Source of the DNA: Peribacillus frigoritolerans
Lineage (GTDB): Bacteria; Bacillota; Bacilli; Bacillales; DSM-1321
Assembly (NCBI RefSeq): GCF_040250305.1
Contig: NZ_CP158190.1
Location: forward strand, 5,488,001-5,552,000
Reading direction: 5' to 3'
DNA length: 64,000 nt
A program made the translations under genes and the position numbers. Below are positions 3,198-52,892 of the stretch, in pieces. The first letter of the stretch is position 1. Every line of letters begins with the position of its first letter. A model generated the notes under the pieces. It was not told where the DNA came from, did not search any database, and was given only the letters and a program-made list of their open reading frames with translations.

Positions 3198-4477
3198 CTG
3201 TTATCTCCCTTTTGTAAATCTGACCCTAACAATAAATACATGATAACGAAAGTAAAAAACATCCCGCCTGTCACAAACGTTGTGGTAAGCGCAGTATCCG
3301 CTAAACACCATGCAGGTACAACAAACAGGATTATGCCGACACCTTGCCACTTTTCATTTTGCGTAAGGCTATCATAAAACCATAATATCGCTGCTAAAAT
3401 CACTGTATAAACCAAGAATCCAATATAACCGAAATTAGCAAAAGCATCGGCGAACATATTGGCATTGGCTGCCATTTCTGGTCGGCCAAAGTACTCTGTA
3501 CCGATAATGTATGGCGGACTCTTGTCATAAACAGGATCTATGAATTTTTCTAAAATATTATACGATAGCAAGGCTTTTGGGTGGGTTGAAAAGAAGTCTA
3601 CATAATAGCTTGTCAGCAAGCCCGGTGTGATGATCATCCTTCTGGCAAACAAATTAGAAAAATATGCCTGATCAAGGATAAAATCTAGAAAAATGCTGAT
3701 GCCTAACAGCGAGCAAAGACTTATACAAAAAAGTATGGAAAAATCCCTTCCCTTCTTCCGAAAAGCAATGAATACAATGATTAATAATCCAGTCGATAAA
3801 AGAGTGGATTTCAAGCCATTGACGGTGTACAAAAGGTATTGCAGCCCTAGTCCGATAACCACATAGGTATATTTTTTTTTGCATAATCCAATGGTCACGA
3901 CCAATGGATTACATACTTTTGCAAGCCACTGTATAATATAGCCTGCAAGAGGGGTTAGTTTTGTTCGAAAGGTCATTCGCTTATCATAGATATCCTCAGA
4001 ATTTATAGGAGGCTTTAGACTAATTCCCCCCGAAACTTTGAAAATGTAAAGAAAAAAAATCAATAATGTTATAACAAAAATGATTTTTAATAGACCGAGA
4101 TTAACATTAGGAGGTGTAAACTTCATGGCTGGCAATCTATTTACATTCCCAATGATAAGTAAACAAAAAAACAAAAGAACATTCGTATATATAAAATCAG
4201 GCTGCAGCGTAAATAAATAGTTCGGAACCCATACTACCGGTATATAGACAATAAAATACAAAATCCAGAAAACGAGTTCCGACGGCTTATCCAGTTCCTT
4301 TTTTATGAATATGACTGGCAATATAATAAAAAACATGGAAATCACTATCATGACTGCACTTGGATGTTGCCGATATATATACCCCATATAAGCATATTCA
4401 GGGGAAATAAAGTAAACGTAGGATATATCCAGTAACCAGACGTATATTCCTACCAGACCCAGTTGAATCAGCTTCAT
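3194..4477 (-). CDS. Polytopic O-antigen polymerase-like protein (Wzy role)
   Basis: The 427-residue product is hydrophobic throughout with roughly 10-12 membrane segments and a large external loop around residues 280-345, which is the layout of Wzy-type polymerases and O-antigen ligases. No short conserved motif defines this group, so the call rests on topology and on position next to a flippase and glycosyltransferases. It sits 16 bases after the flippase gene. Polymerisation of flipped repeat units outside the membrane is inference. A ligase or a lipid-linked sugar transferase is the main alternative. Confidence 0.6.
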   Translation of the reverse strand: MKLIQLGLVGIYVWLLDISYVYFISPEYAYMGYIYRQHPSAVMIVISMFFIILPVIFIKKELDKPSELVFWILYFIVYIPVVWVPNYLFTLQPDFIYTNVLLFFCLLIIGNVNRLPAMKFTPPNVNLGLLKIIFVITLLIFFLYIFKVSGGISLKPPINSEDIYDKRMTFRTKLTPLAGYIIQWLAKVCNPLVVTIGLCKKKYTYVVIGLGLQYLLYTVNGLKSTLLSTGLLIIVFIAFRKKGRDFSILFCISLCSLLGISIFLDFILDQAYFSNLFARRMIITPGLLTSYYVDFFSTHPKALLSYNILEKFIDPVYDKSPPYIIGTEYFGRPEMAANANMFADAFANFGYIGFLVYTVILAAILWFYDSLTQNEKWQGVGIILFVVPAWCLADTALTTTFVTGGMFFTFVIMYLLLGSDLQKGDNR

Positions 4478-4493
4478 TTTTTTAGATATCCTC

Positions 4494-5762
4494 TCAATCT
4501 ATGGAATGTATCGCCCTATAGCCAAGGAGAGCAAAAAAGTAGTAGCTGGCCCCCATACAAATGCTAAAATATAAAATGGCTGCTTTAGCTGAACCCCCTG
4601 AAATGAAAATGACCAGTACTCCAATCGATGACAGTAACAGCCTTGAAACATCCCATAAGAGTTGAGTCCGTTGTTTTTTGGCTAAATACAATATTTGAGA
4701 AACCGGCATGACAATCACTTGACTTATAAACATAAATGACATCAATGTCACATATTCACCGGAAACACGCCACTCTTCTCCAAAAACAAAGCTGAAGACA
4801 CCGGGTGCTATCCATGCCAAAATTGCCATTAACGGCACACCTAACATGGCCGTTTTAGTAATAATGCTCTTATACAAATGTAAAACTCTTCCTGGTTCAT
4901 TTGAAATGCTTTTTGCCACTTCGGCATAGAATACTGTCGAAATACTCGCTCCCACCATCGTAATGGGCAGACCTATCGTTTTTGAAGCCATGGAAAAATG
5001 CCCTGTCACGTCAGGTCCGTATAGACGCATCAATAACAAAAAAATGATTTGCAGAGATAAGGAACTTAAGAGGGTTGACCATGTGGAGTATTTGGCGAAT
5101 TTCTCATATTTTTTAAGCAAATAACCGATTCTCCTATAGTTCACTTTTGGCCAATGCATTCGCTTTAAGTAATATCGCCAAATGTACACAAGGGTTATTC
5201 CCCGTCCTATCATATCACCCGCTATTAAACCAATTCCTGGAGTCACATGATTAATGGAAATAAGTGAGAACTGACTTGTTACATTGCTAATCGATTGAAG
5301 CAGTTTAGAATGAGTTAGTCCTTTAAACTTATCTTCTTTTAACATCCAGTAGCTCATCACTTGATAGATTCCAGCAAAAAACAGGCCAATTGAAAGCAAA
5401 AGGTCATTCATAATCGAAGCTTCTATACCGTATAATCGAAATAATGATAGATTAAGGAAGCCCAAACCTATATTCAGGATACAAACGACGGCAATCGTAA
5501 ACATGCTAATGTACATCAAGTGAACCATATTACTATGGTTTTTTTCTAGAGGAATCGCCTTTTCTAAACAAAGAGATGAAAATGATATGAGAATGGCCAA
5601 TAGTGACGTATAGGTTGAAAACACCCCAAAATCTTCTGGTGTATATATTCTTGTCAGTATGGGAGAACTTGCGAATAGAATAAGCTGTGCCAGTGAATTC
5701 CCTGTTAATAATAAAAGGATTTTATTTATAAATTCATTTTTTATTTTCATATTTTCAACCAC
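4494..5762 (-). CDS. Oligosaccharide flippase (Wzx-like, MOP superfamily)
   Basis: This 422-residue protein with about 12 membrane helices resembles polysaccharide biosynthesis flippases: an early ILLLLTGNSLAQLILFASSP helix followed by LTRIYTPEDFGVFSTY, the characteristic short cytoplasmic loop of this family. It should move undecaprenyl-linked repeat units across the membrane. The start is GTG at 5762, and ATG at 5750 (MKIKNEF) is equally plausible because neither has a strong ribosome site. It lies 22 bases after the WbqC-like gene. Confidence 0.8.
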   Translation of the reverse strand: MVENMKIKNEFINKILLLLTGNSLAQLILFASSPILTRIYTPEDFGVFSTYTSLLAILISFSSLCLEKAIPLEKNHSNMVHLMYISMFTIAVVCILNIGLGFLNLSLFRLYGIEASIMNDLLLSIGLFFAGIYQVMSYWMLKEDKFKGLTHSKLLQSISNVTSQFSLISINHVTPGIGLIAGDMIGRGITLVYIWRYYLKRMHWPKVNYRRIGYLLKKYEKFAKYSTWSTLLSSLSLQIIFLLLMRLYGPDVTGHFSMASKTIGLPITMVGASISTVFYAEVAKSISNEPGRVLHLYKSIITKTAMLGVPLMAILAWIAPGVFSFVFGEEWRVSGEYVTLMSFMFISQVIVMPVSQILYLAKKQRTQLLWDVSRLLLSSIGVLVIFISGGSAKAAILYFSICMGASYYFFALLGYRAIHSID

Positions 5763-5784
5763 GCCACATCTCTATTTGATATAC

Positions 5785-6516
5785 TCATTTACATTGTTCT
5801 GATTTGCCTAATTTATCTTTCGTTAACGTTTCTTTTATTTGATCCGCCGGATCGTGCATGATCCAGTCTAGAATCGATAAATTTTTTACACATTCTTTTT
5901 CATTTTTCACATAATACACGGGATGTATGAACTTTTGATAAACGACTTCAATTCCTTCTTTATGAAACAATTCTTCTTCCAAGTAATCCTTTCCGCTTTT
6001 CCCGCTTAAATAGCATGTACCTTCGGTTTGCTTAATTAAGCTAACTAATCTCTCTGTTTTTCCAAAGGAAGTGTTAAAATCATTGGAAAGGTGTGTTTCT
6101 CCTTCATAGTTTAAATACTTTAAAATCAATTCAAATAAATGAATATTTAAATCGACTAACAAAGCGTGTTCTTTTTGATATGCTTCTTCCAACAGCGGGA
6201 AAAAATCTTGAAAGTGCCGAGTTTTTTTATAAACTTCCGATATTTGCTTCAAATGATTCCTTTTCCATTTTTGATTTGGGGAATGATAACTGATTAATTT
6301 TTCATGTAACATTTCAGGCTTTTTTTGAAGCGGTACAGTTAGCCTTGACTCTTTTCCATCAGCACCTAGAATATATGTTTTATTTTGAAAATTACTTGAA
6401 GAGTATTTCACATCGGTCAAATATATAAAAACGTCCGATTGAAAAACCTTATGAATCAAACCAATCCAAGGCAAGAAATTGGGCTGGTGAATTGTGACTA
6501 TCTTCTTTTTTTCCAC
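5785..6516 (-). CDS. WbqC family protein
   Basis: This 243-residue protein has the WbqC family hallmark IHQPNFLPWIGL at residues 9-20, and continues with YSSSNFQNKTYI and LSGKSGKDYLEE. WbqC-like proteins recur in O-antigen and capsule clusters next to aminosugar genes. Their reaction is not firmly established, and acyl or amino-acid transfer to an amino sugar has been considered. The start is GTG at 6516, immediately behind the PIG-L stop at 6517. A shift towards AT-rich codons with Phe, Lys and Ile is shared with its cluster neighbours. Confidence 0.8.
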   Translation of the reverse strand: MEKKKIVTIHQPNFLPWIGLIHKVFQSDVFIYLTDVKYSSSNFQNKTYILGADGKESRLTVPLQKKPEMLHEKLISYHSPNQKWKRNHLKQISEVYKKTRHFQDFFPLLEEAYQKEHALLVDLNIHLFELILKYLNYEGETHLSNDFNTSFGKTERLVSLIKQTEGTCYLSGKSGKDYLEEELFHKEGIEVVYQKFIHPVYYVKNEKECVKNLSILDWIMHDPADQIKETLTKDKLGKSEQCK

Positions 6517-7146
6517 CTACAAAACCTCTTTTGAAAAAATTAATAGGAATGTCTCCGCGTATTTGCAATTCACTTGGGAACCCCTCCAACTGCCGATATG
6601 CTCCGCATTCACTAAATAATGCCCCATATAACCGGTTAGCTGTGATTGGAACATGGTAATCATACGTTTTTTATCTTCCATGAACTCTGTAATATCACTA
6701 TAGATATTCGGGTGAAATTGATTGGCAGCGATGTTATTATTTTGGTTGATTTGTTCGAATTCATATATGGTGAATTGTTTTTTCCTGAAACAGCTTCTTA
6801 CCACCTTTGATAACTTTTGATGATCTTGATGACTGTCATTCATCCAATGTGTGTAGACTTCGTCCGGATCCATCTTTTCGATGATATCGTCGAGCTCTTT
6901 TATTAATTTATGAAAAGGGATATCCTCAACGTTATTACCCTCACAGTACTTAGAAAACTGTACCTCATATCCGAAATTCTTTGATGACTCTATTGCCTCT
7001 TGTTTCCTGACCTCGATATTCGAAGGGATGGAAAATATGATGTTGATAATGTAATGTCCTTGGTTCAACAGCTTACGAATGGTACCGCCCATACTAATTT
7101 CCGCATCATCTGGGTGTGCTGTTACTAGCAATATTTTTTTCATCAT
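6517..7146 (-). CDS. PIG-L family N-deacetylase
   Basis: This 209-residue zinc-dependent deacetylase belongs to the LmbE/PIG-L family. Residues 10-18 read AHPDDAEIS, the metal-binding HPDDxE motif, and THWMNDSHQDHQ near residues 99-110 supplies the second catalytic His cluster. Such enzymes remove N-acetyl groups from GlcNAc-type sugars. Its start overlaps the dehydrogenase stop by four bases and follows GGAGGAAC. Set between an oxidoreductase and a WbqC protein, it may expose an amine that is then re-acylated, which is inference. Confidence 0.85.
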   Translation of the reverse strand: MMKKILLVTAHPDDAEISMGGTIRKLLNQGHYIINIIFSIPSNIEVRKQEAIESSKNFGYEVQFSKYCEGNNVEDIPFHKLIKELDDIIEKMDPDEVYTHWMNDSHQDHQKLSKVVRSCFRKKQFTIYEFEQINQNNNIAANQFHPNIYSDITEFMEDKKRMITMFQSQLTGYMGHYLVNAEHIGSWRGSQVNCKYAETFLLIFSKEVL

Positions 7147-8120
7147 GTTCCTCCATTTAAAGCTTGTTCAATGATAGATATCGCTTTAAGCGCAATGTTC
7201 TTTTGTTCCATGTAGGCCGTTACATTTTTCATTAAAATCCATTCTGAAAATTCAGTGATTTCATAAAGCAAACTATTATCACTGATAGGTTCACTTAACG
7301 TTTCTTCCATGTCATTAATGATACTGCGGTAACTTATTGTGCGAATATCGTATAACGAGTGAAAACGCAAGGTTCCGTTCTCTCCGTAAATTTCCGATAT
7401 TGAATCATTCGTTAAGTTAATTTTTGAAATCAACATCGTTATTTTAAAATCTTCATATTCAAAAATGCACGTACCGCCTAAATCAATGTTTTTTACGATC
7501 AGTTGTTTAAAATAATAACTTTTAACGGGAACACCAAATAATTGAATGGCCGCATAAATAGGATAAATTCCAATCGTTCTTAATGTCCCGCCACCATGAT
7601 TTTCATCGAAAAGTGGAGCTTTCTCCCCTTTTAATAAGGCCGAATACTGCTTGGAATAGTTTTGGTACTTTAGGGTTGCCCCATGGATTTTCCCTAACTT
7701 TTTAATAGCATTCTTTAAAATTTGAAAGTTGGGTTCATAAATGGATCTTACTGCCTCAAACACAAAAACATTTCGTTTTTCTGCTGCATCGAAAACCCGA
7801 TTGGCCTGATCGGCTGTCATGAATGCCGTTTTCTCCACAATAACGTTCTTTCCATGCTCAATGGCTGCTAACGCTTGTTCATAATGGGAAGCATTTGGAG
7901 TGGCTATATAAACAGTATCCAGCTCATCATCTTCAAACACTTCATTCAGGGATCCATAAACTTTAGACACTCCTTTTTCTTTTGCAAGCTTCTTGGCAAA
8001 ATGAAATCTTCTCCCCCAAATTCCCATTACCTCTCCATTTGAACTTTCATTAATGGCATCAATCATGGCACAGCTTATTGAACCTGAGCCCACCACTCCA
8101 ATCCTATTTTTAATCGCCAT
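7143..8120 (-). CDS. Gfo/Idh/MocA family sugar dehydrogenase
   Basis: This 325-residue NAD(P)-dependent oxidoreductase has the Rossmann motif GVVGSGSIS at residues 8-16, an active-site EK pair in VEKTAFMT near 96, and the family signature IGIYPIYAAIQLFG near 188-201, followed by an alpha/beta C-terminal domain. In glycan clusters these enzymes oxidise or reduce nucleotide-linked sugars next to an aminotransferase. It overlaps the upstream DegT gene by 11 bases and the PIG-L gene by four, so the three products are made together. Confidence 0.85.
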   Translation of the reverse strand: MAIKNRIGVVGSGSISCAMIDAINESSNGEVMGIWGRRFHFAKKLAKEKGVSKVYGSLNEVFEDDELDTVYIATPNASHYEQALAAIEHGKNVIVEKTAFMTADQANRVFDAAEKRNVFVFEAVRSIYEPNFQILKNAIKKLGKIHGATLKYQNYSKQYSALLKGEKAPLFDENHGGGTLRTIGIYPIYAAIQLFGVPVKSYYFKQLIVKNIDLGGTCIFEYEDFKITMLISKINLTNDSISEIYGENGTLRFHSLYDIRTISYRSIINDMEETLSEPISDNSLLYEITEFSEWILMKNVTAYMEQKNIALKAISIIEQALNGGT

Positions 8121-9234
8121 GTTCCACTACCTGTTTACATTTAGCTGCAATGTAATTCAAATCCTCATCAGACAAATCCAAGTGACATGGCAACGTGAAA
8201 TGAGATTCACGAAATCTATCGGCATTCGGGAGAGATGCCAGGGGATATTCCTCCAATAATGTGGGCTGTAAATGCAATGGGACCCCATAACAATGCCCGG
8301 TGCTTATATGAGACTCTTTTAAATGCTTTTTAAATTTCTCGCATTGCTCTTTGCTTTTAGACATGACGATAATTTTATAAAATGAAGATATATTGTGGTC
8401 AGATGAAGCTTGGAAGTAAAGACCGTGTTCATGAAAAATATCCTTCAAAGTCTCCTTATAGAAACTGAAGATTTCCTGCCTGACCTGGATCATCCCATAA
8501 GCTTCCTGAACTTGCAGATAACCAAGCAATGCATTAAATTCACTGAGAAGCATGTCACCGGATAATACTTGGTTGACTGCACCATTTTCATTCCCATGGT
8601 GCCTTAACAACTCACAGTATTTGATTAAATCTATATCGTCCGAAGTAATGACACCCCCTGTTGCACTTGTAACAATTTTAGTGGGGTACATTGAAAAAAC
8701 CCCAGCAAATCCAATTGTACCTGCTTTATATCCATTTATAGTGGCACCAAAAGCATGTGAAGCATCTTCGATTAGATAAAGATCATTCTCATCACAAAAC
8801 TCTTTAATCTCAAAGATGTTATCAGGGATCTTTCCGGCAATATACGTAATTAAGACAACTTTCGTTTTAGGAGTCACGGCGTTCTTCAGGCTATTTAAAT
8901 CCAAATTGAAATCCTCTAAATTAATGTCACAAAGAACGACTCTTCCTTTCGCATTTTTCACCGCATATACTGGAGAAATGAACGTATTGCTTGGCATGAT
9001 CACTTCTTTGTCTTCAACATCTAGATATTTTAAAATAATTTCAATGGCAGCCGTGGCACTGGAAAGTGCGACAGCATACTTAGAATCACTGTATTGTCTG
9101 ACGCTTTCTTCAAATTTTCGAGTATACTCACCTAAAATTAGCCTGCCAGAATCCAAAATGCGCTCAATGTTCTTAAGGTATTCCCGTTTTACCCAACCTG
9201 TTATCACTGGCTTTGTATTTACGATAGTCTCCAT
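8110..9234 (-). CDS. DegT/DnrJ/EryC1/StrS sugar aminotransferase
   Basis: This PLP-dependent enzyme of the DegT family transaminates a keto-sugar nucleotide. Visible features are SSATAAIEI near the N-terminus, EDASHAFGA (cofactor-binding Asp and His), and FSMYPTKIVTSATGG carrying the Schiff-base Lys near residue 185. I place the start at ATG 9234, behind AAGGATGGAG. An upstream TTG at 9270 lacks a ribosome site. The resulting 374 residues match the family length. Followed directly by a Gfo/Idh dehydrogenase, it suggests synthesis of a dedicated amino sugar for this glycan. Confidence 0.85.
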   Translation of the reverse strand: METIVNTKPVITGWVKREYLKNIERILDSGRLILGEYTRKFEESVRQYSDSKYAVALSSATAAIEIILKYLDVEDKEVIMPSNTFISPVYAVKNAKGRVVLCDINLEDFNLDLNSLKNAVTPKTKVVLITYIAGKIPDNIFEIKEFCDENDLYLIEDASHAFGATINGYKAGTIGFAGVFSMYPTKIVTSATGGVITSDDIDLIKYCELLRHHGNENGAVNQVLSGDMLLSEFNALLGYLQVQEAYGMIQVRQEIFSFYKETLKDIFHEHGLYFQASSDHNISSFYKIIVMSKSKEQCEKFKKHLKESHISTGHCYGVPLHLQPTLLEEYPLASLPNADRFRESHFTLPCHLDLSDEDLNYIAAKCKQVVEHGD

Positions 9235-9328
9235 GGAACTCCATCCTTTTTCCAAAATTAGATCTTTCAATAGACGTTAAGTGAGATGCAGACAAATATT
9301 CACCATTGTTCAAGAGGAACTTGATTAT

Positions 9329-10501
9329 TCAATGATCATTAACAATCAATTCCGACAGTGTTCTCTCCAGTTTTGAAATCAATTTGGTTTTCTCATAATT
9401 CAGGGTTAAACGTTTTATATTTTCTTGGATTTTCAGATACATTTGTTTGTCACTTTTCATTGATTTTACATACTCTATCATCTTTGATTCTTCACTATAT
9501 TCAAAACCGTGACCTGCATCATATTTTGTCATGACCTCATGCTGCCAGCCTTTATAGTTTATTAATGTTGGTTTTCCGGCTGCCCAAAAATCAAAAAGTT
9601 TATTTTGACTATTCCTATCCAATATTTCATAATCACGTACAAAACACAGACCTATATGAGATACGGCCATCAATAAGTACGCTTCTTTTTTAGATACCTG
9701 ATCCAAGAAAATGACGTTGTTTAATTTTTTGCTCTCTTTCACTTGAATTAAGCGTTCTTTTTCCTTTCCATCCCCTACAATTAGGTAGACAATATCGGGG
9801 TCATCCGTCTTTTCGGCAAGCTGTAAAATATAATCGATATTATTGATAAATCCTAATGTGCCTGCATATAAACAGATAAACTTCGCTTTTAAACCTAATT
9901 TATCCAATGCTTCTTCTTTATCTTCGGAACGAATTCGAGAAAAATAGTTTATATCCGCAAAGTTAGTAACCGTAGCAATTTTTTCCCGTTTAACTCCTTT
10001 TTTCAATAAATCTTCCTTCATCCCAGGCGAAAGCACGATGATTTTATCAGCCGAAGAATAAATAATGCTTTCTAGCTTCAATAAAATTCTCTTTAACCAT
10101 TCATGTCTGATGATTCCCAGCTCAATAGGTATATCTGGCCATAAATCCCTTACTTCAAACACAAATTCGCTGCGCTTTACCTTAGCAAGGAGCATACCTA
10201 TCAATCCAATTGTCAAAGGGGTCGAGGAAGCATAAACTACCTCTACCTCCTTCTCCTTCACCCCAATGAAAAAACTCTTATACATATAATGAATAAACGA
10301 TAATAATCTTTTCAGGTAACTATATTCTTGTTTATATTTAGTTTTGGTTGATATGATCTTTATTCCCTCACGCGAATCTATGGAATTTCCGGTGATGATG
10401 GTGACTTTATTATTTTTAGAGACTAAAAATTTAGCTATTTCATAAGATCGGGTACTGCCTTTATCGGTATTGAAATATTGATGCAAATAAAGAATCTTCA
10501 C
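9329..10501 (-). CDS. WbuB-like family 4 glycosyltransferase
   Basis: This GT4 enzyme starts KILYLHQYFNTDKGSTRSYE, the N-terminus usual in WbuB-type N-acetylamino-sugar transferases, and has FEVRDLWPD near residue 115 and NKLFDFWAAGKPTLINY near 295-311, the donor-binding region. I choose the GTG at 10501, which has AGAGGAAG just upstream, over the GTG at 10525. The product is about 390 residues. It is the first enzyme gene of the run that continues to 1529, and 196 bases of noncoding sequence separate it from the beta-helix gene. Confidence 0.8.
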   Translation of the reverse strand: MKILYLHQYFNTDKGSTRSYEIAKFLVSKNNKVTIITGNSIDSREGIKIISTKTKYKQEYSYLKRLLSFIHYMYKSFFIGVKEKEVEVVYASSTPLTIGLIGMLLAKVKRSEFVFEVRDLWPDIPIELGIIRHEWLKRILLKLESIIYSSADKIIVLSPGMKEDLLKKGVKREKIATVTNFADINYFSRIRSEDKEEALDKLGLKAKFICLYAGTLGFINNIDYILQLAEKTDDPDIVYLIVGDGKEKERLIQVKESKKLNNVIFLDQVSKKEAYLLMAVSHIGLCFVRDYEILDRNSQNKLFDFWAAGKPTLINYKGWQHEVMTKYDAGHGFEYSEESKMIEYVKSMKSDKQMYLKIQENIKRLTLNYEKTKLISKLERTLSELIVNDH

Positions 10502-10697
10502 TTTTTCACTTCCTCTTTTACCCACTGTGATTCAATTTGACTTACAGAGTAATGCTTTCCCTATTGCATTCACCCCAGAAAACAAATGTAACACTTAATA
10601 TAGGTGAGGCTTGTCCCTTTTTTAGAATGGGGCGTTTTAACTTTGAAACCCACTAGCATCTTATACAGCCATTCCTTACTCCTGCTTTTTCATCACA

Positions 10698-12365
10698 TTA
10701 GGTTTGTTCCAGTTCAAGGAAGGCCGTAATGGCAATCCAGTCATCCAGGCGGTTATAAACCGTTTTGTCTTGTACATGGATTTCAGGCCCAACTTCGGTA
10801 AATATGTTATCCCTTTCAATACCGTTATTTTTCATGTTCAAAGAGGTGAAGGCATAATCATTTGTAGGGCTGCCGTTATTATGCGATCCTCTGATACCAA
10901 TGCCCGCTGAAATAAACTTTTCATCGGATTTATGAATTTGGTTTATGATGTTTCCTTTGATTTTGGTGAACTTGTTGGAGCTAAGCATCGCAATCCCATT
11001 GTTGAGGCTATTTTCAATGATATTGCTTTCAATAAGGGCATTTTTGGTCACATGAATACTGATGCCTCCCCATTCCTCGACATTAGCCCGGACATCATTC
11101 ACATAATTGCCTTTAATCACGACCTTTTGCAGGAAGCCCATCTTTGTTTCAGTAAGATCATGGTATTGCGTTCCGTTGACTGTAATGCCCCGTTCGCTGA
11201 CTGTTGCATTTTTATCTATATCGTAATACGCATAATCATTAAAAGAATTGATTCTATTCCCCTCAATCGTAATATTGCCGGGTGGGTAAGCTGAGATAGC
11301 TCCTCCCTTGTAATCCATTCCGCCGACAATGATTGGAAAACGCGTGTTTAAGATGACATTATTCGTGAAGGAAACATTTTGGCCTGAATGGGTGTCAATT
11401 CCTTCCCATCCTGGGTTGTTCGCCACCACATTCCCATCGACTGCGATTGTGTCACTTCGCGGGAACTTTGATTGAGTTATTGCATCTCCGGCACTGTCTT
11501 TCCGGTGACTAAAGGCGATGCCATAGCTTTGTTTGGTATTGCCCACCGTCTCCCCGGGTCCAAGATTTATCACTGTCGCATGCCTTACAGTCACGTTACT
11601 CGCAGAATAACCGCCGATGCCTGCATATCCAATATCCTTTATGATCATTTTGTTTCTTTTTCTTGAATCAGACCCTTTAATCATGACTCCATTCACATGT
11701 TCTAAGTAAATGCCATATCCTTCATACCCGGTGATTTGAACATCTTCGATCAGGATATTTTGAAGCCTGTGCAAATCATTTACAGCCGAATAGACAGACA
11801 CCAAATCCGACGTGGATTTGGATTGATCGATTGCAGTAACCTCGATGCCCCTGTTCCTTGCTTCAAAATAATTTCTCGGTTTCCCAGTTTTGGGGTCTTC
11901 CGTCCGTCGCTTTCCTTCTAGTATCAGGTTTTTGACACCAGTATGGCTCACCATGATTTTAATGGTGACAGAATCGCTTGAGGGCTGGGTACACATTGTC
12001 GTGACGGTTCTTTCGTTCTCCACCGTCCCTTCTAAAGTGACCCCTTCTTTCATTGCAATAAACGCACTCGCCGTAAACTGGCCTTTTGACAAACGGACCG
12101 TTCCCCTTTTCCCATTCGATACATCTTGCGGATAGGCTGAAACCTTTGTAATGGCATTGTTAAGGATTTTCCGGATCGATGTGGCGGAATGGTTCGCGTC
12201 TAGTGACAGCGTTTGTTTTAACTCCCCTTTATTGTCCAATAACTGAATCGCGGTACCCGTTGTGGGACTGCAGACCTCGTTTGCCCCGACGGCAGTTGAC
12301 TGAAGGGAGAAGAACGTCATGAGTAACACGGTAAATATTCCTGTAATTTTATATAGATATTTCAT
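10698..12365 (-). CDS. Secreted right-handed beta-helix repeat protein
   Basis: This protein of about 555 residues has a signal peptide (MKYLYKITGIFTVLL then MTFFSLQSTAVGA) and a long run of parallel beta-helix repeats, with recurring strand-turn units such as NVTVRHATVINLG, NITIEGNRINSFN and ALIESNIIENSLNNGIAML between about residues 130 and 500. The fold is shared by pectate lyases, alginate epimerases and NosD-like proteins. I chose ATG 12365 because GGGAG precedes it, and an ATG lies at 12392. It may modify, cleave or bind the polysaccharide of the following genes. No catalytic residues could be assigned. Confidence 0.75.
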   Translation of the reverse strand: MKYLYKITGIFTVLLMTFFSLQSTAVGANEVCSPTTGTAIQLLDNKGELKQTLSLDANHSATSIRKILNNAITKVSAYPQDVSNGKRGTVRLSKGQFTASAFIAMKEGVTLEGTVENERTVTTMCTQPSSDSVTIKIMVSHTGVKNLILEGKRRTEDPKTGKPRNYFEARNRGIEVTAIDQSKSTSDLVSVYSAVNDLHRLQNILIEDVQITGYEGYGIYLEHVNGVMIKGSDSRKRNKMIIKDIGYAGIGGYSASNVTVRHATVINLGPGETVGNTKQSYGIAFSHRKDSAGDAITQSKFPRSDTIAVDGNVVANNPGWEGIDTHSGQNVSFTNNVILNTRFPIIVGGMDYKGGAISAYPPGNITIEGNRINSFNDYAYYDIDKNATVSERGITVNGTQYHDLTETKMGFLQKVVIKGNYVNDVRANVEEWGGISIHVTKNALIESNIIENSLNNGIAMLSSNKFTKIKGNIINQIHKSDEKFISAGIGIRGSHNNGSPTNDYAFTSLNMKNNGIERDNIFTEVGPEIHVQDKTVYNRLDDWIAITAFLELEQT

Positions 12366-12787
12366 CTGAAAACTCCCATGTCTCTTATTCATTTTTCGGC
12401 AGTTGTTTTACATACTTCAGGGGCTGGGTGACAAAGACACCATAGTCGGCCTGGAAAGGAAGGGGTGCATATCTAATTTTACAAGGGAAGTGAGATTTGC
12501 ATTTCTCAAAATCAACATATCTTGTGTTAATCTTGGGACAGTAGCTTAAACGTACGGCCAATTTTCCCATACAAAAAACCTTCAATAGCTCAGGGGTAAA
12601 CCGGATTGTGATGGGAAAACAAACCTCCTTGCGCCACTATTGAAAAGAGAAGGAATGTGTCCGGCGATTACAAGGGGGGTAATCTCTCATTCGAAAGAAA
12701 AAGCCTTTCCCCGATGTTGGCCGGGAAAGGCTGCAGCTTGATATACTCTTTTTTATGTGTCATTCTTTATAACCCCCGCAAAGAAAA
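12366..12787. other. Noncoding stretch with two hairpins upstream of the beta-helix gene
   Basis: No convincing gene lies here. On the minus strand the arms TTCAATAG and CTATTGAA (12637-12644 and 12581-12588) enclose about 48 bases and are followed by GGTTTTTTG, as in a transcription attenuator about 200 bases before the beta-helix start. A second hairpin pairs AGCCTTTCCC (12702-12711) with GGGAAAGGCT (12723-12732), with T-rich sequence following on the minus strand. I could not match the first element to a known riboswitch. Confidence 0.45.
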
Positions 12788-13383: not shown

Positions 13384-14577
13384 CTATTTAACAGCACCTG
13401 ATCTTTGTTCTTTCTTCTTTTGGTGGGATTGCTGCTGTTCCTTTGAATTCCGGCGATTAAAATCCGAAATCAATTTATAATAGGCGTTGGCCATCATCCA
13501 AACGCTTTCCCGTTCATCTTCAAAAAAGTCTATATTGTAGCCATCAAAATTCTGATTGAGCGTTTTCAGGTAATCTTTCAAGACAATCGAACCTCCGCCA
13601 ACAAAATAGCAGATTTCCGTTTGCGAGTTTTTCTGCCATACGTTGCGCAGATGGCGATATTGCTTTTTCGCAAGTTCTCCTAAAATCCGGTCGACGATAT
13701 CATGGACGCTTGTCCGGCTTCCGCGAACCATAATATGGTTACGATCGTTTTTCTTCGTGATGATTTCAACGACATCTCGTCTGCTATCCAGCTCGACACC
13801 GTGTTTTTTTCTGATTTCTTCACGAATAGATTCAAGAGCCTCAGCTACTCCTAGATTGAATCCTTGCGCCTTATCATCGTCAACTTTACGGTTTTTAATG
13901 ACCGCGATATCTGTCGATAGTCCGCCAATATCTTGAATGAGAATTCTTCTATCTATCAATTCACGGTTAATGATATTCAGATCATTGTCCATGACTAAAT
14001 TAATGTATGCGGCGAAGCCCTCTGGATAGACTTTCACTTCATCAAATTTGATATTAACCTTAATACCTTGGTATTTAGGTGTAATTAAAAATTCTACTTG
14101 GTGAACGGATCCCAGTAGCTTCGAACGGTACCCAACATCTTTCCCTTCCTTAACTTCCCGAAGAGGTAGACCTGTGCCCAGCGTATAATTCGCTTCGACA
14201 ACGTTATTTACTTTTTTGAACTTATCATTATTCCCTTGCTTGGCAGCATCCAATGCAATAGCCGCAAAAAGCATTACTAATGTTTGGTCTTCCTCTGATT
14301 TACTGCTCCCCAAATCTAGTTCTGTTGGGTTATCACTTTTTGTCGCTAAATTTCCGACACGATAAATGGCATTATTGTCTTGCAAGGCTGGTGAATGGAC
14401 TCTAATATGTAACCCTTCCAATGGGTTTTTTTCATCGAGTTCTTCGATTCCTATGACCGGACGATCTTCAATGTCTTTTGCAATGACATTTGGTATATAT
14501 AGTTCAGACTCTAGCTTTCCAAAAATAGCTTTAATTGCATCATTTCCTACATCTATTGCTGCGATTCTAGAACTCAT
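13384..14577 (-). CDS. parM: ParM/StbA family actin-like ATPase
   Basis: This 397-residue protein of the actin superfamily polymerises with ATP or GTP to push DNA copies apart in plasmid partition. Phosphate-1 AIDVGNDAIKAIFG is at residues 6-19, phosphate-2 IQDIGGLSTDIAVI near 213-226, and the adenosine motif VGGGSIVLKDYL near 327-338. The C-terminal 20 residues are Gln/Lys-rich. The start ATG 14577 follows AAAGGGGATG. The upstream region carries repeated TGTACA-type motifs. It resembles ParM of Bacillus plasmids, yet sits among ordinary chromosomal genes. A second, broken 5' copy lies at 15342-15638. Confidence 0.8.
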   Translation of the reverse strand: MSSRIAAIDVGNDAIKAIFGKLESELYIPNVIAKDIEDRPVIGIEELDEKNPLEGLHIRVHSPALQDNNAIYRVGNLATKSDNPTELDLGSSKSEEDQTLVMLFAAIALDAAKQGNNDKFKKVNNVVEANYTLGTGLPLREVKEGKDVGYRSKLLGSVHQVEFLITPKYQGIKVNIKFDEVKVYPEGFAAYINLVMDNDLNIINRELIDRRILIQDIGGLSTDIAVIKNRKVDDDKAQGFNLGVAEALESIREEIRKKHGVELDSRRDVVEIITKKNDRNHIMVRGSRTSVHDIVDRILGELAKKQYRHLRNVWQKNSQTEICYFVGGGSIVLKDYLKTLNQNFDGYNIDFFEDERESVWMMANAYYKLISDFNRRNSKEQQQSHQKKKEQRSGAVK

Positions 14578-14700
14578 CTAAAAACATCCCCTTTTTCATA
14601 AAAAAAATTTAGGTGGAGCACTCTATTAAGCATAGAAAAGGTTTCTATATTAGTCAATGCTTCATAAGTTGTAGCTTTATTTGTCGAATTGTATTCATTT

Positions 14701-14830
14701 GTGTACACATTAGGAACAAATATGTACACACGTTATATATAGCCATGTGTACTTGTTTGTAAACATGTTTACTTTTTTTGTGTACAAACCAACTATTTTC
14801 GTTTACATGTATACAATATTGCAAACAAAC
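14701..14830. repeat. Centromere-like repeat array, copy 1 (parC candidate)
   Basis: The spacer upstream of parM holds closely spaced short motifs: TGTACA at about 14703, 14723 and 14782, TGTAC near 14748, and GTTTACA, TGTAAACATGTTTAC and GCAAACAAAC near the right end. They occur in both orientations. Type II partition loci place the ParR-binding centromere and the parMR promoter in exactly this position. Binding by the adjacent ParR-like protein is inferred. Confidence 0.55.
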
Positions 14831-14942
14831 AAAAAACTAACTTTTAATAATCTTATTCATATAAAAGAAAGCGTAAAAAAGGAGAATTTGGTCATGGTAA
14901 TAAATTGGACAAACCACTAATGAAACGTATGAAGATATTAAA

Positions 14943-15341
14943 ATCACTGAAAAAATAAAGAACTTCCTCAATATCCGTAGCCATATTGGCGCAGCACTTT
15001 ATCCTTCCTTCGTTTTCTAAGCTAGAAACAGATATAACAACTGATGTCTTAATTGTTGGTGGCGGAATTACGGGTATCACTTCAGCTTATCTATTAGCCA
15101 AGCAAGGTGTGAAAGCCACATTCATTGAGGCAGATGAGACCCTTAATGGAACAACAGGCCACACAACCGTAAAAATCACGGTCCAGCACGGCTTGATTTA
15201 CGACCAATTTATTACTGATCACAGTGAGGAATAGGCCAGACTATACTTTATGAGGCCAACACTGAAGGAACGGAGCTATCAAAGGATTGATAGAAGAACA
15301 TTCTATTGAATGTACAAGATGCTTATGTATACGCAAATACT
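14943..15341 (+). pseudogene. Truncated duplicate of the Rieske-FAD oxidoreductase 5' end
   Basis: This stretch matches the first 400 bases of the intact oxidoreductase at 16003, including the FAD-binding segment IVGGGITGITSAYLLAKQG. It is dead: the ribosome site GGAGG has become GAAGA, the start ATG is ATC (14943-14945), the reading frame shifts early, a TAG stop occurs near 15232, and deletions follow. The match ends abruptly at 15341, where parM-derived sequence begins in the opposite sense. Confidence 0.85.
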
Positions 15342-15638
15342 AATGTTTGGTCCTCCTCTGATTTACTGCTCCCCAAATCTAGTTCTGTTGGGTTATCACT
15401 TTTTGTCGCTAAATTTCCGACACGATAAATGGCATTATTGTCTTGCAAGGCTGGTGAATGGACTCTAATATGTATCCCTTCCAAGGTTTTTTACATCGAG
15501 TTCTTCGATTCCTATGACTGGCCGATCTTCATGTATTTTGCAATGACATTTGGTATATATAGTTTTAGGCTCTAGCTTTCCAAAAATAGTTTTAATTGCA
15601 TCATTTCCTACGTCTACTGCTGCGATTCTAGAACTCAT
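15342..15638 (-). pseudogene. Truncated duplicate of the parM 5' end
   Basis: These bases repeat the first 300 bases of parM (14278-14577), start codon included (CAT at 15636-15638), with small indels, for example where the Asn-Gly codons of IEELDEKNP are altered, that break the frame. The 3' three-quarters of the gene are absent. The junction with the oxidoreductase remnant shares the short sequence TACT with both parents, pointing to a tandem duplication joined at microhomology. Confidence 0.85.
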
Positions 15639-15761
15639 CTAAAAACATCCCCTTTTTCATAGAAAAAATTAGGTGGAGCACTCCCGATAGAAGAGATTTC
15701 TATATTAGTCGATTCTTCATAAGCTGTAGCTTTATTTTCATTTGTCGAATTGTATTCATTT

Positions 15762-15892
15762 TTGTATACATTAGGAACAAACATGTATACACCTTATATA
15801 CAGCCATGTGTACGGGTTGTAAACATATATACACATTTGTGTACAAAACATCTATTTTTGTTTACATGTATACATAATTGTAAACAAACCAA
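15762..15892. repeat. Centromere-like repeat array, copy 2
   Basis: This spacer is the duplicate of 14701-14830 and keeps the same order of motifs, but two of the TGTACA elements read TGTATA here, and one gained CATATATACA. It lies upstream of the intact oxidoreductase and of the dead parM fragment. It may supply a second ParR-binding site or simply the oxidoreductase promoter. Confidence 0.5.
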
Positions 15893-16002
15893 ATAATGTA
15901 TTTTTTTAACCTTTCTTCTTACAAAAATAAGCGTATAAATAGCGGATTTGGGTATGGTAATAAATGGACAATTCAACTAATGAACTGTATGGAGGTATTA
16001 AA

Positions 16003-17523
16003 ATGACTGAAAAAAATACAGATCTTCCCCGATTTCCGGAACCCTATTGGCGCAGTGAGTTAACTTTCCCTTCTTTTTCTAAACTAGATACAGACATAAC
16101 CACTGATGTCTTAATAGTGGGCGGCGGAATTACCGGAATCACATCTGCGTATCTACTAGCTAAACAAGGTGTTAAAGTCACTCTGATTGAAGCAGGCGAA
16201 ATCCTTACTGGAACGACAGGACACACTACAGCAAAAATCACGGCCCAGCATGGCCTGATTTACGACCAGCTGATCACTGACCATGGTGAAGAGAATGCCA
16301 AACTTTATTATGAAGCCAATACAGATGGAATGAAGCTTATCAAAGACTTGGTAGAAGAACATTCCATAGAATGTAATTTGACTGCACAGGATGCCTATGT
16401 GTACGCAAATACTGAGGAATATAAAAGCAAAATTCAAAATGAATTGAAAGCCTATCAAAAACTCGGCATTCGGGGGGATTATGCGGAGAATATCCCTTTC
16501 TCCATTCCTTGTAAAGCTGCTGTGATAATGAAAGACCAAGCACAGTTTCACCCGTTAAAATACTTAACTGCCCTCATTTCGACAATTCTCGAAAGCGGAG
16601 GCACCATTTATGAACGGACCACGGCAATGAAGATTGAAGACGGCGATCCACCGACCGTTCTGACGGATACGGGACATACAATCAAAAGCAATCAGGTCAT
16701 TGTTGCTTCCCACTTCCCCTTTAATGATGAAATGGGCTTATACTTTGCCCGTGTTCATGTAAAAAGATCCTATGTACTTGGAATCAGGACTGAACAGGAA
16801 TATCCCGGTGGGATGTATTACAGTGCCGACAGCCCTACCCGCTCCCTTCGCTATACGGAGTTGGACAATGGGGAAAAACTTATACTTGTTGGCGGAGATG
16901 GCCATAAAACAGGACAGGGAATCTCGACGATCGAGCATTATGAAGCACTGAAGGAATTCAGTTCCCAGTATTTCGATGTGAAAGACATTCCCTACCGCTG
17001 GTCGGCACAGGATATTGTGACACCGGATAATATCCCCTTCGTCGGGCCGGTGACACCCAATCATCAAAACGTCCTGATAGCTACCGGCTATGCGAAATGG
17101 GGAATGACGAACGGATCGATTGCCGCCAGGATTTTAACTGACCGGATTTTGCAAAGAGATAACCGGTATGCGGAATTGTATGATCCTGCCCGTTTAAAAG
17201 GTGTGAAGAATATTCTCCAAGATAATGCTGATGTGGCGAAGCATCTCATCAAAGGCAAATTGGCCTTCAATCATAAAACGCCGGAAGACATAGGAATTGA
17301 TGAAGGAGCAATCGTGAAGGTGAATGGTGACAAAGCTGGGTGTTATCGTGATCATGATGGCCAGCTCCATATTGTTGATTCCACCTGTACACATATGGGG
17401 TGTGAAGTTGCCTGGAATAGCGGCGACCGTACTTGGGATTGCCCATGTCATGGCTCCCGCTACTCTATCGCTGGTGAAGTGTTAAATGGCCCTGCTGTCG
17501 AACCATTGAAGAAAATTCGCTAA
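16003..17523 (+). CDS. yhfW: FAD-dependent oxidoreductase with C-terminal Rieske domain (YhfW-like)
   Basis: This protein of about 506 residues fuses a DAO-type FAD oxidoreductase to a Rieske [2Fe-2S] domain. The dinucleotide motif VLIVGGGITGITSAYLLA is near residues 34-51, and the cluster ligands are CTHMGC near 462 and CPCHGS near 481. The architecture and length match B. subtilis YhfW, of unknown substrate. I place the start at ATG 16003, seven bases after GGAGG. An in-frame ATG at 15964 has no ribosome site. The gene diverges from the par locus, and its 5' end exists in a broken second copy at 14943-15341. Confidence 0.85.
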   Translation: MTEKNTDLPRFPEPYWRSELTFPSFSKLDTDITTDVLIVGGGITGITSAYLLAKQGVKVTLIEAGEILTGTTGHTTAKITAQHGLIYDQLITDHGEENAKLYYEANTDGMKLIKDLVEEHSIECNLTAQDAYVYANTEEYKSKIQNELKAYQKLGIRGDYAENIPFSIPCKAAVIMKDQAQFHPLKYLTALISTILESGGTIYERTTAMKIEDGDPPTVLTDTGHTIKSNQVIVASHFPFNDEMGLYFARVHVKRSYVLGIRTEQEYPGGMYYSADSPTRSLRYTELDNGEKLILVGGDGHKTGQGISTIEHYEALKEFSSQYFDVKDIPYRWSAQDIVTPDNIPFVGPVTPNHQNVLIATGYAKWGMTNGSIAARILTDRILQRDNRYAELYDPARLKGVKNILQDNADVAKHLIKGKLAFNHKTPEDIGIDEGAIVKVNGDKAGCYRDHDGQLHIVDSTCTHMGCEVAWNSGDRTWDCPCHGSRYSIAGEVLNGPAVEPLKKIR

Positions 17524-50458: not shown

Positions 50459-51339
50459 GCTTCAAAGCCCCTCTCGACCTCTAACCTTTGCGGCATGCCG
50501 CCTTGTGCGCCTAATTTCGTCACGGAAATGGAGGCTGCCCGGTTCGCGAACAACAAACATTCGTCAAAACTTTTTCCTTCTGCAACAGCCACCGCAAAGG
50601 CAGCATTGAAAGTATCCCCTGCCCCTGTCGTATCCACCGCTTCCACTTCAAAACTTGGAACAACCTTTTCTTCATGTCCGTCAAAATAACGGACGCCATT
50701 TTTCCCTTCGGTAATGAATAATTTATTTGGATACTCAGTCAAGACTTCCGTTCTATCTCTCCCATTGAATAGTATCTCGAATTCATGTTCATTCGGAGTA
50801 AGGAATGATGCCTGTTGAATGACAGCCTCGCTTAGCTTGCGGGCGGGAGCTGGGTTCAATAGTAATCTCTTTTGAAGCGTGTTGCACAAGTCAGCCAGAA
50901 ACTCCACCGTTTCCTCAGGTATTTCCTGCTGAACCAACACGATATCCGAATCTTCTATTACTTTTTTCGCCTTTTGTACATATTCAGGAGTAATGAAATC
51001 ATTCGCACCTTTTACGACAATAATGCTGTTATCACCTTCCGAAAGGGTAATGTGTGCTGTCCCGGAAGCAGACCCTGTAACCGGTTCCACATACTCCGTG
51101 TTTACATGATTTTTTTTCAGGTTTTCTAAGATGATCTCTCCATAGACATCATCTCCTACACATCCAACCATCGACACTTCTGCACCAAGACGTGCCGCTG
51201 CAACAGCCTGGTTGGCTCCCTTTCCTCCAGGAACCGTGATAAAGGACTCCCCTAAAACCGTTTCCCCCGCCATTGGCCGTTTGGCTGATGTCACCACTAA
51301 GTCCATTGACGAACTTCCGACTACTGCAATTCTAATCAT
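50455..51339 (-). CDS. rbsK: Ribokinase
   Basis: RbsK phosphorylates ribose to ribose-5-phosphate. At 294 residues it has the PfkB signatures [20 protein letters not shown] near 39-58 and [20 protein letters not shown] near 239-258, with catalytic Asp in GAGD. The ATG at 51339 overlaps the rbsR stop by four bases. Confidence 0.94.
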
Positions 51340-52322
51340 GTCTTCTCCGCCTTCCTTCTCGTTGTTTGTCTCTCCACAAAAGAAACAGGGAGCTTTTTAT
51401 GTGTTACTTCCATTTTTTCTTGATTGATCCTTTTAATTAGCATTTCCGCCGCTTGTGCCCCCATCTCATAGGCTGGCTGCCGAATTGTCGATAAAGGCGG
51501 GTGCAATAACGCTGTGAAGGCAATATCATCATAGCCGATCAATTGTATGTCTTCCGGTATCCGTATTCCCCGTTTTAAAATCTCTTGAAGTGCGGCGGCT
51601 GCAACAATATCATTACAAGCAATGATTCCATCGGTTTCCGGATATTGCTCGAAAAGCTGCTTCACGCATGTTTGGCCGCCCTGAAGAGTTAGGGATGAAT
51701 CCATGACTTGCACGTTCACTTTTGCTTGTTTCAATTCTTCCAATGCTGCCATGTACCGTTCATATACAGGCTTTATTTCGACTGGCCCCCTAATGAGGAC
51801 GATATTCGTACTACCTCTATCCAGCAATACGCGTGCTGCCAGCTTACCGCCTGTCTTTTGATCGGAATAAACAGCTGGTAACTTCTCAGCTGTACGGTCG
51901 AGAAGGACAACTGGAATATCCAGATTATCGAAATTTTCATTGGCTTCTTCACTAGTTGAAGCAATCATGCCCACTACATTATTTTGCAGGAATGTGTCGA
52001 TATATTCTATTTCTTTATCTCTCTTTTCATCACTATTTCCAAAAATTAACCGATAACCAAATTGCTGCAGATAATCCTCGACACCTCTTGCCATTTCTGG
52101 GAAGAAGGGATTCGTAATGTCCGGCAAAATCAAACCAACCAATTTGGATTTACGTTTGTAGAGGGATCTTGCCACTTCATTCGGTTTATAATTCAATTTT
52201 TCAACAGCTGCCATGACCACCTTTTTTGTGTCCTCATGTGCATAACCACTGCCATTCATAACTCTGGAAACCGTTGCCACAGAAACTCCAGCTTCCTTTG
52301 CCACATCCCGAATAGTTGCCAA
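51336..52322 (-). CDS. rbsR: LacI-family repressor of the rbs operon
   Basis: RbsR has the LacI HTH at the N-terminus (TIRDVAKEAGVSVATVSRVM), the hinge region NYKPNEVARSL, and a sugar-sensing domain with GLILPDITNPFFPEMARGVE and LIGYDDIAFTALLHPPLSTI. I place the start at TTG 52322 behind GAGGGTGAT, giving 328 residues. The longer frame to 52361 would run through the operator. First gene of the operon, hence autoregulated. Confidence 0.92.
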   Translation of the reverse strand: MATIRDVAKEAGVSVATVSRVMNGSGYAHEDTKKVVMAAVEKLNYKPNEVARSLYKRKSKLVGLILPDITNPFFPEMARGVEDYLQQFGYRLIFGNSDEKRDKEIEYIDTFLQNNVVGMIASTSEEANENFDNLDIPVVLLDRTAEKLPAVYSDQKTGGKLAARVLLDRGSTNIVLIRGPVEIKPVYERYMAALEELKQAKVNVQVMDSSLTLQGGQTCVKQLFEQYPETDGIIACNDIVAAAALQEILKRGIRIPEDIQLIGYDDIAFTALLHPPLSTIRQPAYEMGAQAAEMLIKRINQEKMEVTHKKLPVSFVERQTTRRKAEKT

Positions 52323-52342
52323 TATATCACCCTCAATACTTT

Positions 52343-52360
52343 TGTGTAACCGTTTACACA
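52343..52360. promoter_or_regulatory. Operator of rbsR (RbsR and/or CcpA)
   Basis: TGTGTAACCGTTTACACA is a near-perfect 18-bp palindrome around a central CG, 20 bases upstream of the rbsR start. LacI-family repressors, RbsR and CcpA alike, bind this pattern. Confidence 0.75.
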
Positions 52361-52465
52361 TAGCTTATCACCAATTTAAATGAACGGCAAGCCCTATACC
52401 AAAGATAATTTTTAGGGAATTTGACCTAAAACTGAAGGAAACAGGAGTTCTACCTAACTGTTAAA

Positions 52466-52623
52466 ACTAAGTTGATTGGAGTGGAAGGTACGAGACTCCT
52501 GCGGGAAAAGCGCGTCCAAGGGAGACCCCCGCAGACGCAAGCCGAGGAGGCTCACGGACCGCACCGCGGAAAGCGAGTGCCTGGAGCGGAAATCAACGGT
52601 CTAATTGTAAAAGCCATAAAAAT
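52466..52623 (+). repeat. Dispersed palindromic repeat, copy A
   Basis: About 158 bases beginning ACTAAGTTGATTGGAG and ending TAAAAGCCATAAA. It is almost identical to the copy at 52697. The ends GTTGATTGGAGTGGAAGGTA and GGAGCGGAAATCAAC are partly complementary, and GAGACTCCTGCGGG pairs with CCCCGCAGACGCAAG in part, so an RNA could fold into a long hairpin. It is a family of intergenic repeats rather than a gene. Confidence 0.8.
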
Positions 52624-52696
52624 ACTGTGGAAAGGTGGTCGGAACACATATTAACATCTTCAACTCCTTAGATATGGTTTCTATCTAAATTTAATG

Positions 52697-52853
52697 ACTA
52701 AGTTGATTGGAGTGGAAGGTACGAGACTCCTGCGGGAAAAGCGTGTCTAGGGGAGACCCCGCAGGCGCAAGCCGAGGAGGCTCCCTGACCGCCCGCGGAA
52801 AGCGAGTGCCTGGAGCGGAAATCAACGGTCTAATTGTAAAAGCCATAAAAAAA
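52697..52853 (+). repeat. Dispersed palindromic repeat, copy B
   Basis: Second direct copy, 231 bases after the start of copy A, with a handful of substitutions and small indels (for example CGTGTCTAGGGG for CGCGTCCAAGGG). It is bounded on its right by a hairpin terminator. Confidence 0.8.
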
Positions 52854-52892
52854 CAGTAGACAAACTCGATTTTCATGGAGTTTGACTACTGT
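52853..52892. terminator. Hairpin at the border of repeat B
   Basis: ACAGTAG-A-CAAACTC (52853-52867) pairs with GAGTTTG-A-CTACTGT (52878-52892) except for one central A:A mismatch. It abuts repeat B and may terminate transcription on either strand. Confidence 0.6.

Follow-up and report, generated by a model that had tools for sequence, protein, structure and literature searches.

Chromosomal ParMR (cParMR) systems have been described from Desulfitobacterium, Clostridium, Moorella and Bacillus tropicus, and the main text of that report presents a demonstration of ParR-bound palindromic repeats for one Clostridium system (PMC12270681). The terms 'Peribacillus', 'duplicat' and 'origin of replication' are absent from this main text, and 'oriC' occurs once, in the reference list; among the literature matches listed, no title or abstract opening concerned a Peribacillus ParM or duplicated parC arrays, and further listed matches dealt, apart from the cParMR report itself, with systems of plasmids or prophages. 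The locus considered here lies in a stretch of 64,000 nucleotides (nt; hereafter the window) of a 5.6-Mb Peribacillus contig (NZ_CP158190.1, genome G000), with parM approximately 95 kb from dnaA when the contig is taken as circular. Of the components of plasmid ParMRC systems it has an actin-like ParM (by Pfam), a parR adaptor gene (by similarity only) and an upstream repeat array, but it is not plasmid-borne. All 97 plasmid ParM records compared were less than 60% identical to its ParM, the best 15 of the 97 reaching 41–44%, and, given this distance and the position near dnaA on so large a contig, the module is regarded as a chromosomal relative of plasmid ParMRC. Its array region is doubled, and comparison with relatives makes it quite probable that the doubling arose in a lineage resembling P. 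butanolivorans, was imported as part of a block through the repeat array of the second spacer, and left two copies with divided roles.

The doubled region consists of two head-to-tail units of approximately 1.06 kb each (14275–15341 and 15338–16413, offset 1055–1072 nt). The first comprises the 5' end of the living parM, spacer 1 and a dead piece of an oxidoreductase gene, and the second a dead parM piece followed by spacer 2 and the 5' end of the living oxidoreductase gene. In a self-comparison of the window (E ≤ 1e-6, low-complexity filter on) the pair forms one alignment of 1090 columns with 83.5% identity (E 0), which bears out the two copies of about 1.07 kb read from the sequence in an initial annotation. 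Its description of the outer genes as intact also holds, both being open frames (397 and 506 amino acids, aa), as does the TACT junction shared with both parents: the join lies at this 4-bp microhomology and leads from oxidoreductase codon ~137 to parM codon ~101. The inner decay that it listed is likewise present. The living oxidoreductase start ATG (16003–16005) corresponds to ATC in the dead piece (14943–14945), the preceding GGAGG (15991–15995) to GAAGA (14931–14935), and the inner pieces carry an in-frame TAG (15232–15234), frameshifts and an 11-nt gap. Tandem duplication is thus confirmed, and so is the truncation of the inner pieces. Identity between the units drops along their length, from 96% in parM (288/299) through 84% in the spacer (261/310) to 80% in the oxidoreductase (355/444), an order at odds with the annotated view of a well-conserved spacer between decaying fragments. 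A single duplication followed by neutral decay predicts no such step, since the dead pieces would be of the same age; the drop is instead explained by the mosaic nature of the units.

Among 36 genomes of the genus, 21 have one array upstream of parM and 15 have a second. Six of the latter (G000, G061, G021, G007, G001 and G013) share the structure of the window, here called type A, with an identical junction; intact inner genes, which the annotation had named as the finding that would contradict it, were not found, the inner pieces being truncated in all six. In the remaining nine (type B; G017, G004, G033, G029, G023, G008, G027, G006 and G031), oxidoreductase codon ~198 runs into spacer nt ~58, a junction that is the same in all nine, some of them having changes in the first bases past it. 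Derivation of type B from type A by trimming, or the reverse, is ruled out, as each has its own junction and pieces absent from the other. At locus L157 of the type-B genome G008, more than 1 kb of extra DNA separates the two arrays and contains one frame that we take to resemble a transposase remnant.

Sequence comparison places the dead oxidoreductase piece of the window with the gene of P. butanolivorans and not with its own neighbour. Its identity is 92.3% with the living gene in P. butanolivorans G007 and 79.5% with that in its own genome; within G007, the corresponding dead and living sequences agree at 94.1%. Codons 1–140 of the living G000 gene show 89.3–95.2% identity to the nine type-B genomes and 82.9% to G007. 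A tree was built from 24 oxidoreductase sequences, namely a selection of 19 living genes and every type-A dead piece except that of G013, which is mosaic; no type-B dead piece was included. In this tree, the five dead pieces group with the G007 gene (100/100), and the living G000 gene groups with the frigoritolerans complex, as we name this grouping here. Constraining the dead piece and its own neighbour to a clade cost 201 log units, with a p-value of 1e-57 in the approximately unbiased (AU) test. Differences by codon position (1/2/3) amount to 13/16/55 between the dead piece and its own gene, which resembles the comparison of living with living genes (8/8/57), whereas the flat 8/10/14 pattern against the G007 gene fits decay without selection. 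By identity, AU test and codon positions, the adjacent living oxidoreductase is ruled out as the parent of the dead piece. The expectation of descent from the adjacent gene hence fails in G000, and among type-A genomes it fits G007; of the duplication history as first annotated, the join is substantiated by its recurrence in six genomes, but the source of the dead oxidoreductase has to be revised. A dead piece beside a living gene need not be a copy of that gene. Third-position bias against their own genes is also seen in the four type-B dead pieces examined (e.g. 24/17/51 in G017); their age, or an exchange of alleles in these genomes as well, may be the cause.

The housekeeping genes of G000 are 96.4–98.4% identical to those of eleven members of the frigoritolerans complex, 92.8–95.1% to those of G013, G006 and G008, and 90.5% to those of G007. 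A housekeeping tree (three stretches, 6194 columns, 21 genomes; G008 and G025 without the rpoB stretch) places G000 with G061, G001 and G025 (96/99) inside the complex. The par block, by contrast, resembles G007: the region at 13.0–15.7 kb of the window is 91–98% identical to G007 (95–98% in seven of nine comparison windows) and 76–93% identical to G023, and parM differs from its G007 counterpart at 39 of 1191 nt, compared with 133 for G023. The left end of the donor-like stretch falls near 12.7–13.0 kb. Towards the right, unit 2 matches G007 at 56 of 60 positions over spacer nt 110–169, but over nt 230–289 it matches G007 at 43 of 59 and G017 at 59 of 60. In 60-nt steps the turn from G007-like to G017/G023-like sequence falls at spacer nt 170–229 (window ~15809–15868), inside array 2, and single sites suggest that the switch could start near 15780. 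In G000, the butanolivorans form thus extends from parR and parM through array 1 and the two dead pieces to the end of the left half of spacer 2, beyond which the spacer and the living oxidoreductase have the type native to the complex. Since the housekeeping genes go with the complex but the par block with G007, this whole stretch of approximately 3 kb, spacer 1 included, was probably imported, and we infer a crossover inside the spacer-2 repeat array. Two further type-A genomes are 86–91% identical to the window at 13.0–14.2 kb and not donor-like over most of parM: G001 is not donor-like left of ~14.2 kb and seemingly switches type earlier in the spacer, and G013 retains the native type through spacer 1 and ~225 nt of the dead oxidoreductase piece before turning to the donor type. 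The block was thus probably acquired by recombination, and donor-type stretches of differing length are present, those of G001 and G013 being shorter than that of G000. The locus would then be a case of a par locus moving between species via its own repeat array.

The proposed course of events begins with a single duplication of the divergent promoter and array region in a butanolivorans-like lineage. The block of approximately 3 kb would subsequently have entered the lineage of the window by homologous recombination that ended on the right within the spacer-2 array, and the two jobs of the old divergent spacer would have been divided, copy 1 serving parM and copy 2 the neighbour gene. With less assurance, both arrays may have stayed putative binding sites of the ParR-like protein, which would make them a two-part centromere-like element approximately 1 kb across on the chromosome.

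An array upstream of parM is present throughout the loci examined from the wider family. At E ≤ 1e-100, ParM relatives occur in 201 of 397 genomes and 55 of 135 genera of the order, with 77–100% identity among the listed order members, and a parR-like gene follows parM in all 80 named loci. The distance between parM and dnaA (both on one contig, complete contigs taken as circular) is 89–140 kb in 26 of 27 genomes of the genus, 281 kb in G016 and ~39–235 kb in five genomes of other families. A cluster of TGTNTACA repeats, defined as at least six units in 150 nt, was present upstream of parM in 160 of 160 distinct upstream sequences. These represent the best 80 of 435 loci, 80 loci hand-picked from the listed order members and the 36 genus genomes, 196 sequences in all before those with identical last 300 nt were merged. 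No such cluster occurred in 732 kb of shuffled sequence, which kept base composition only, and in 633 kb of other loci clusters were found only within the par loci that these contain.

A second, distal array was found in 21 of the 160 upstreams, namely the 15 from Peribacillus, four Cytobacillus-like loci (L085, L086, L089 and L090), Metabacillus bambusae L128, and L225. The upstreams are related, so this fraction gives no rate of events; with Peribacillus supplying 15 of the 21 through two events, the independent doublings apparently number about four (Peribacillus A, Peribacillus B, the Cytobacillus-like group and M. bambusae). It is possible that types A and B are separate deletions of one larger duplication, which would leave about three origins. 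In each of the four Cytobacillus-like loci, the extra DNA is flanked on either side by sequence that aligns to L084, a relative with a single array. A search between the arrays of these four loci and of L128 revealed no remnants of parM or of the neighbour, so that the doubling in these five is deduced from array similarity alone. L225 (genome G265) has two clusters ~280 nt apart and unusually far from parM, which may be parts of one long array, the result of a duplication or an effect of a wrongly placed start; the locus is included in the 21 without being counted as an event. A weaker distal cluster of five units at L230 (G209) falls outside the 21.

In type-A genomes, the half of each spacer that adjoins its living gene is conserved. 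Among six pairs of four type-A genomes, the parM side of spacer 1 shows 0–1 changes in ~117 nt, and in spacer 2 the parM side shows 4–14 changes in 98–118 nt and the oxidoreductase side 0–4 in 61. The repeat units are conserved less surely. In array 2, repeat cores differ less than the DNA between them, both in type A (0.045–0.051 vs 0.149–0.156) and in type B (0.109 vs 0.159), although type-A array 2 joins two allele types and its contrast therefore partly predates the join; in type-B array 1 the contrast is weaker (0.100 vs 0.131). The mean number of exact units is 5.6 for type-B array 2, 4.8 for array 1 and 6.7 for single arrays, compared with 2.0–2.6 under a neutral model that assumes 0.12–0.15 changes per site (a range we estimated for dead branches), a star-like history and a substitution profile of our choosing. 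The excess is smaller for units matching at 7 of 8 positions (8.7, 9.6 and 9.7, respectively, vs 6.3–7.0). Repeat units thus appear to be kept in both copies above a rough neutral expectation.

These results allow a broader reading, which we offer only tentatively: that an oriC-near chromosomal module repeatedly evolves a two-array centromere, with predicted ParR-binding arrays ~0.8–2 kb apart on non-coding DNA, doubled about four times and passed between species. In its favour are the repeated origin of doublings, the retention of units and the second array of M. bambusae, whose neighbour should need no promoter there. Several observations weigh against this reading or against parts of the proposed history. 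Taken whole, the arrays diverge at the rate of dead DNA, and at this level the expected slower evolution of the spacer compared with the dead coding parts is not upheld: mean differences over 36 type-B pairs, with gapped sites left out, are 0.122 for array 1 and 0.136 for array 2 against 0.122 for the dead oxidoreductase piece, array 2 being lower than the dead piece in 13 of the 36. In four type-A genomes, array 1 even changes faster than the adjacent dead piece, with 5–8 changes in ~137 nt against 6–12 in 390–464. Nor do the type-A array 1 cores evolve more slowly than the DNA between them, the contrast being absent over six genomes (0.100 vs 0.109) and reversed over four (0.063 vs 0.033). 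Units could have been refreshed by recombination instead of being kept by selection, and a two-array centromere is further disfavoured by the neighbour's promoter in the cases other than M. bambusae. As regards the import, the dead pieces in G000 and G007 agree at 91.9%, which falls short of near-identity, so a third lineage outside the sample may have been the donor to both G007 and the complex. As a separate observation, array 1 of the type-A genomes looks as if turnover were quick while units are kept.

The strongest competitor to a segregational role, to which we give slightly less than an even chance, is that array 2 is kept only as the promoter or operator of the divergent neighbour, the doubling being irrelevant to segregation. 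In its favour stands the asymmetry of spacer 2 in type A, with its conserved oxidoreductase side and unconserved parM side. The divergent neighbour, moreover, adjoins array 2 in Peribacillus; among the four Cytobacillus-like loci its distance from the array is 1.2 kb in L086 and ~0.25–0.5 kb in the others. M. bambusae L128, a single genome, does not fit, since it has an array 2 although the gene beyond points towards the array and should need no promoter there; array 2 also equals array 1 in its number of exact units.

It is also conceivable, if rather doubtful, that the array region is a mutational hot spot prone to duplication, whose doublings merely drift. Direct repeats touching the parM-proximal spacer (at least 60 nt long, 400–3000 nt apart) were found in 20 of the 160 upstreams, and no such repeat was found anywhere in the up to 4 kb searched of the other 140; in control neighbourhoods of housekeeping genes, which are gene-rich regions, a direct repeat was seen in 1 of 90 loci. 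The Peribacillus junctions, however, lie in gene sequence and at spacer nt ~58, outside the array, and 15 of 16 sampled genomes of the butanolivorans–frigoritolerans clade keep a doubling.

Two histories without import of the par block fare worse. If the duplication had taken place in an ancestor shared with P. butanolivorans and the outer oxidoreductase had later been overwritten by a frigoritolerans-type allele, an identical mosaic with its breakpoint in spacer 2 would result; yet parR and parM would have had to stay 96–98% identical to G007 while housekeeping genes diverged to 90.5%, and most of parM in G001 and G013 lacks likeness to the donor. We therefore consider overwriting unlikely and prefer import, which explains the likeness of the par block and the G001/G013 pattern at once. 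A tandem duplication that arose locally, in the lineage of the window itself, and then decayed neutrally would suit the head-to-tail layout, the microhomology and the broken inner pieces, but it is highly improbable given the AU test, the codon-position pattern and the allele switch in spacer 2, being refuted for the oxidoreductase half in G000 while fitting G007.

Table 1. Features of the par locus and its doubled spacer, in window coordinates.
Feature	Position	Strand	Basis or remark
parR-like adaptor gene, 180 aa	12833..13375	-	similarity to plasmid genes behind parM
parM, Alp7A-like actin, 397 aa, intact	13384..14577	-	Pfam Alp7A_like_C, ALP_N
Spacer copy 1	14578..14942		between parM and dead oxidoreductase piece
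Array 1, TGTNTACA repeats, 10 units at ≥7/8 match	14690..14827		repeat count
Dead oxidoreductase 5' piece, P. butanolivorans type	14943..15341	+	identity, tree and AU test, codon positions
TACT, copy junction	15338..15341		common to parM (14275–14278) and oxidoreductase (16410–16413)
Dead parM 5' piece, ~codons 1–101, frameshifted	15338..15638	-	unit alignment
Spacer copy 2, butanolivorans type in its left half and native type in its right half	15639..16002		sliding comparison
Array 2, TGTNTACA repeats, 11 units	15751..15886		holds inferred crossover at ~15780–15868
FAD (flavin adenine dinucleotide; DAO) and Rieske oxidoreductase, intact, 506 aa from start used, native allele	16003..17523	+	Pfam

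The Pfam matches of ParM are Alp7A_like_C (2.6e-36) and ALP_N (3.2e-11), with MreB-like_C above the cut-off too; its score for Pfam ParM_N is under the cut-off and that for the NCBIfam ParM equivalog far under it. The 180-aa parR-like protein has no Pfam or NCBIfam match, and a sequence search against solved structures returned no relative (best E 0.46, to chains of other kinds), but it is 29–35% identical (E 2e-16 to 1e-21) to the product of the gene behind parM in three of three plasmids examined. The living oxidoreductase matches DAO (1e-47) and Rieske (5.6e-13). An Rfam scan of 12.4–18.7 kb gave no match at gathering score. A second parM relative, 43–44% identical and so nearer to the identity level of the plasmid records, occurs on another contig in five genomes (G021:C65, G029:C111, G009:C2, G010:C3 and G030:C33).

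Left of parR, the genes at ~4000–12700 of the window match G061, G023 and G013, with no match in the stretches taken for G007, G021, G001, G017 and G029 and two short ones in G025; these patchy matches suggest a variable island next to the par block. The one direct repeat of at least 60 nt in the window besides the unit pair, at 52.4–52.9 kb (52448–52631 and 52679–52860; 184 nt, 91% identical), sits between the gene at 51336–52361 (-), presumably a LacI-like regulator, and the 603-aa gene at 52928–54739 (-), which we take to resemble a siderophore synthetase.

In its actin-like parM, the adaptor-like gene behind it and the repeat-rich upstream region, the module resembles the plasmid type II (ParMRC) systems, with the Alp7A type as the nearest by Pfam. 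It differs from them in being chromosomal and near dnaA, and the three plasmids examined lack a TGTNTACA cluster by the identical test. With the cParMR systems, compared here with their description in PMC12270681, it shares a chromosomal parM and parR. The locus points to a conserved, origin-proximal chromosomal family of putative ParMR modules, in which related species with one and with two arrays offer a natural contrast. Like other tandem duplications with truncated inner genes, it combines a microhomology junction with dead inner pieces; unlike a plain tandem duplication, it was apparently imported between species as a block, with the crossover inside the duplicated array itself.

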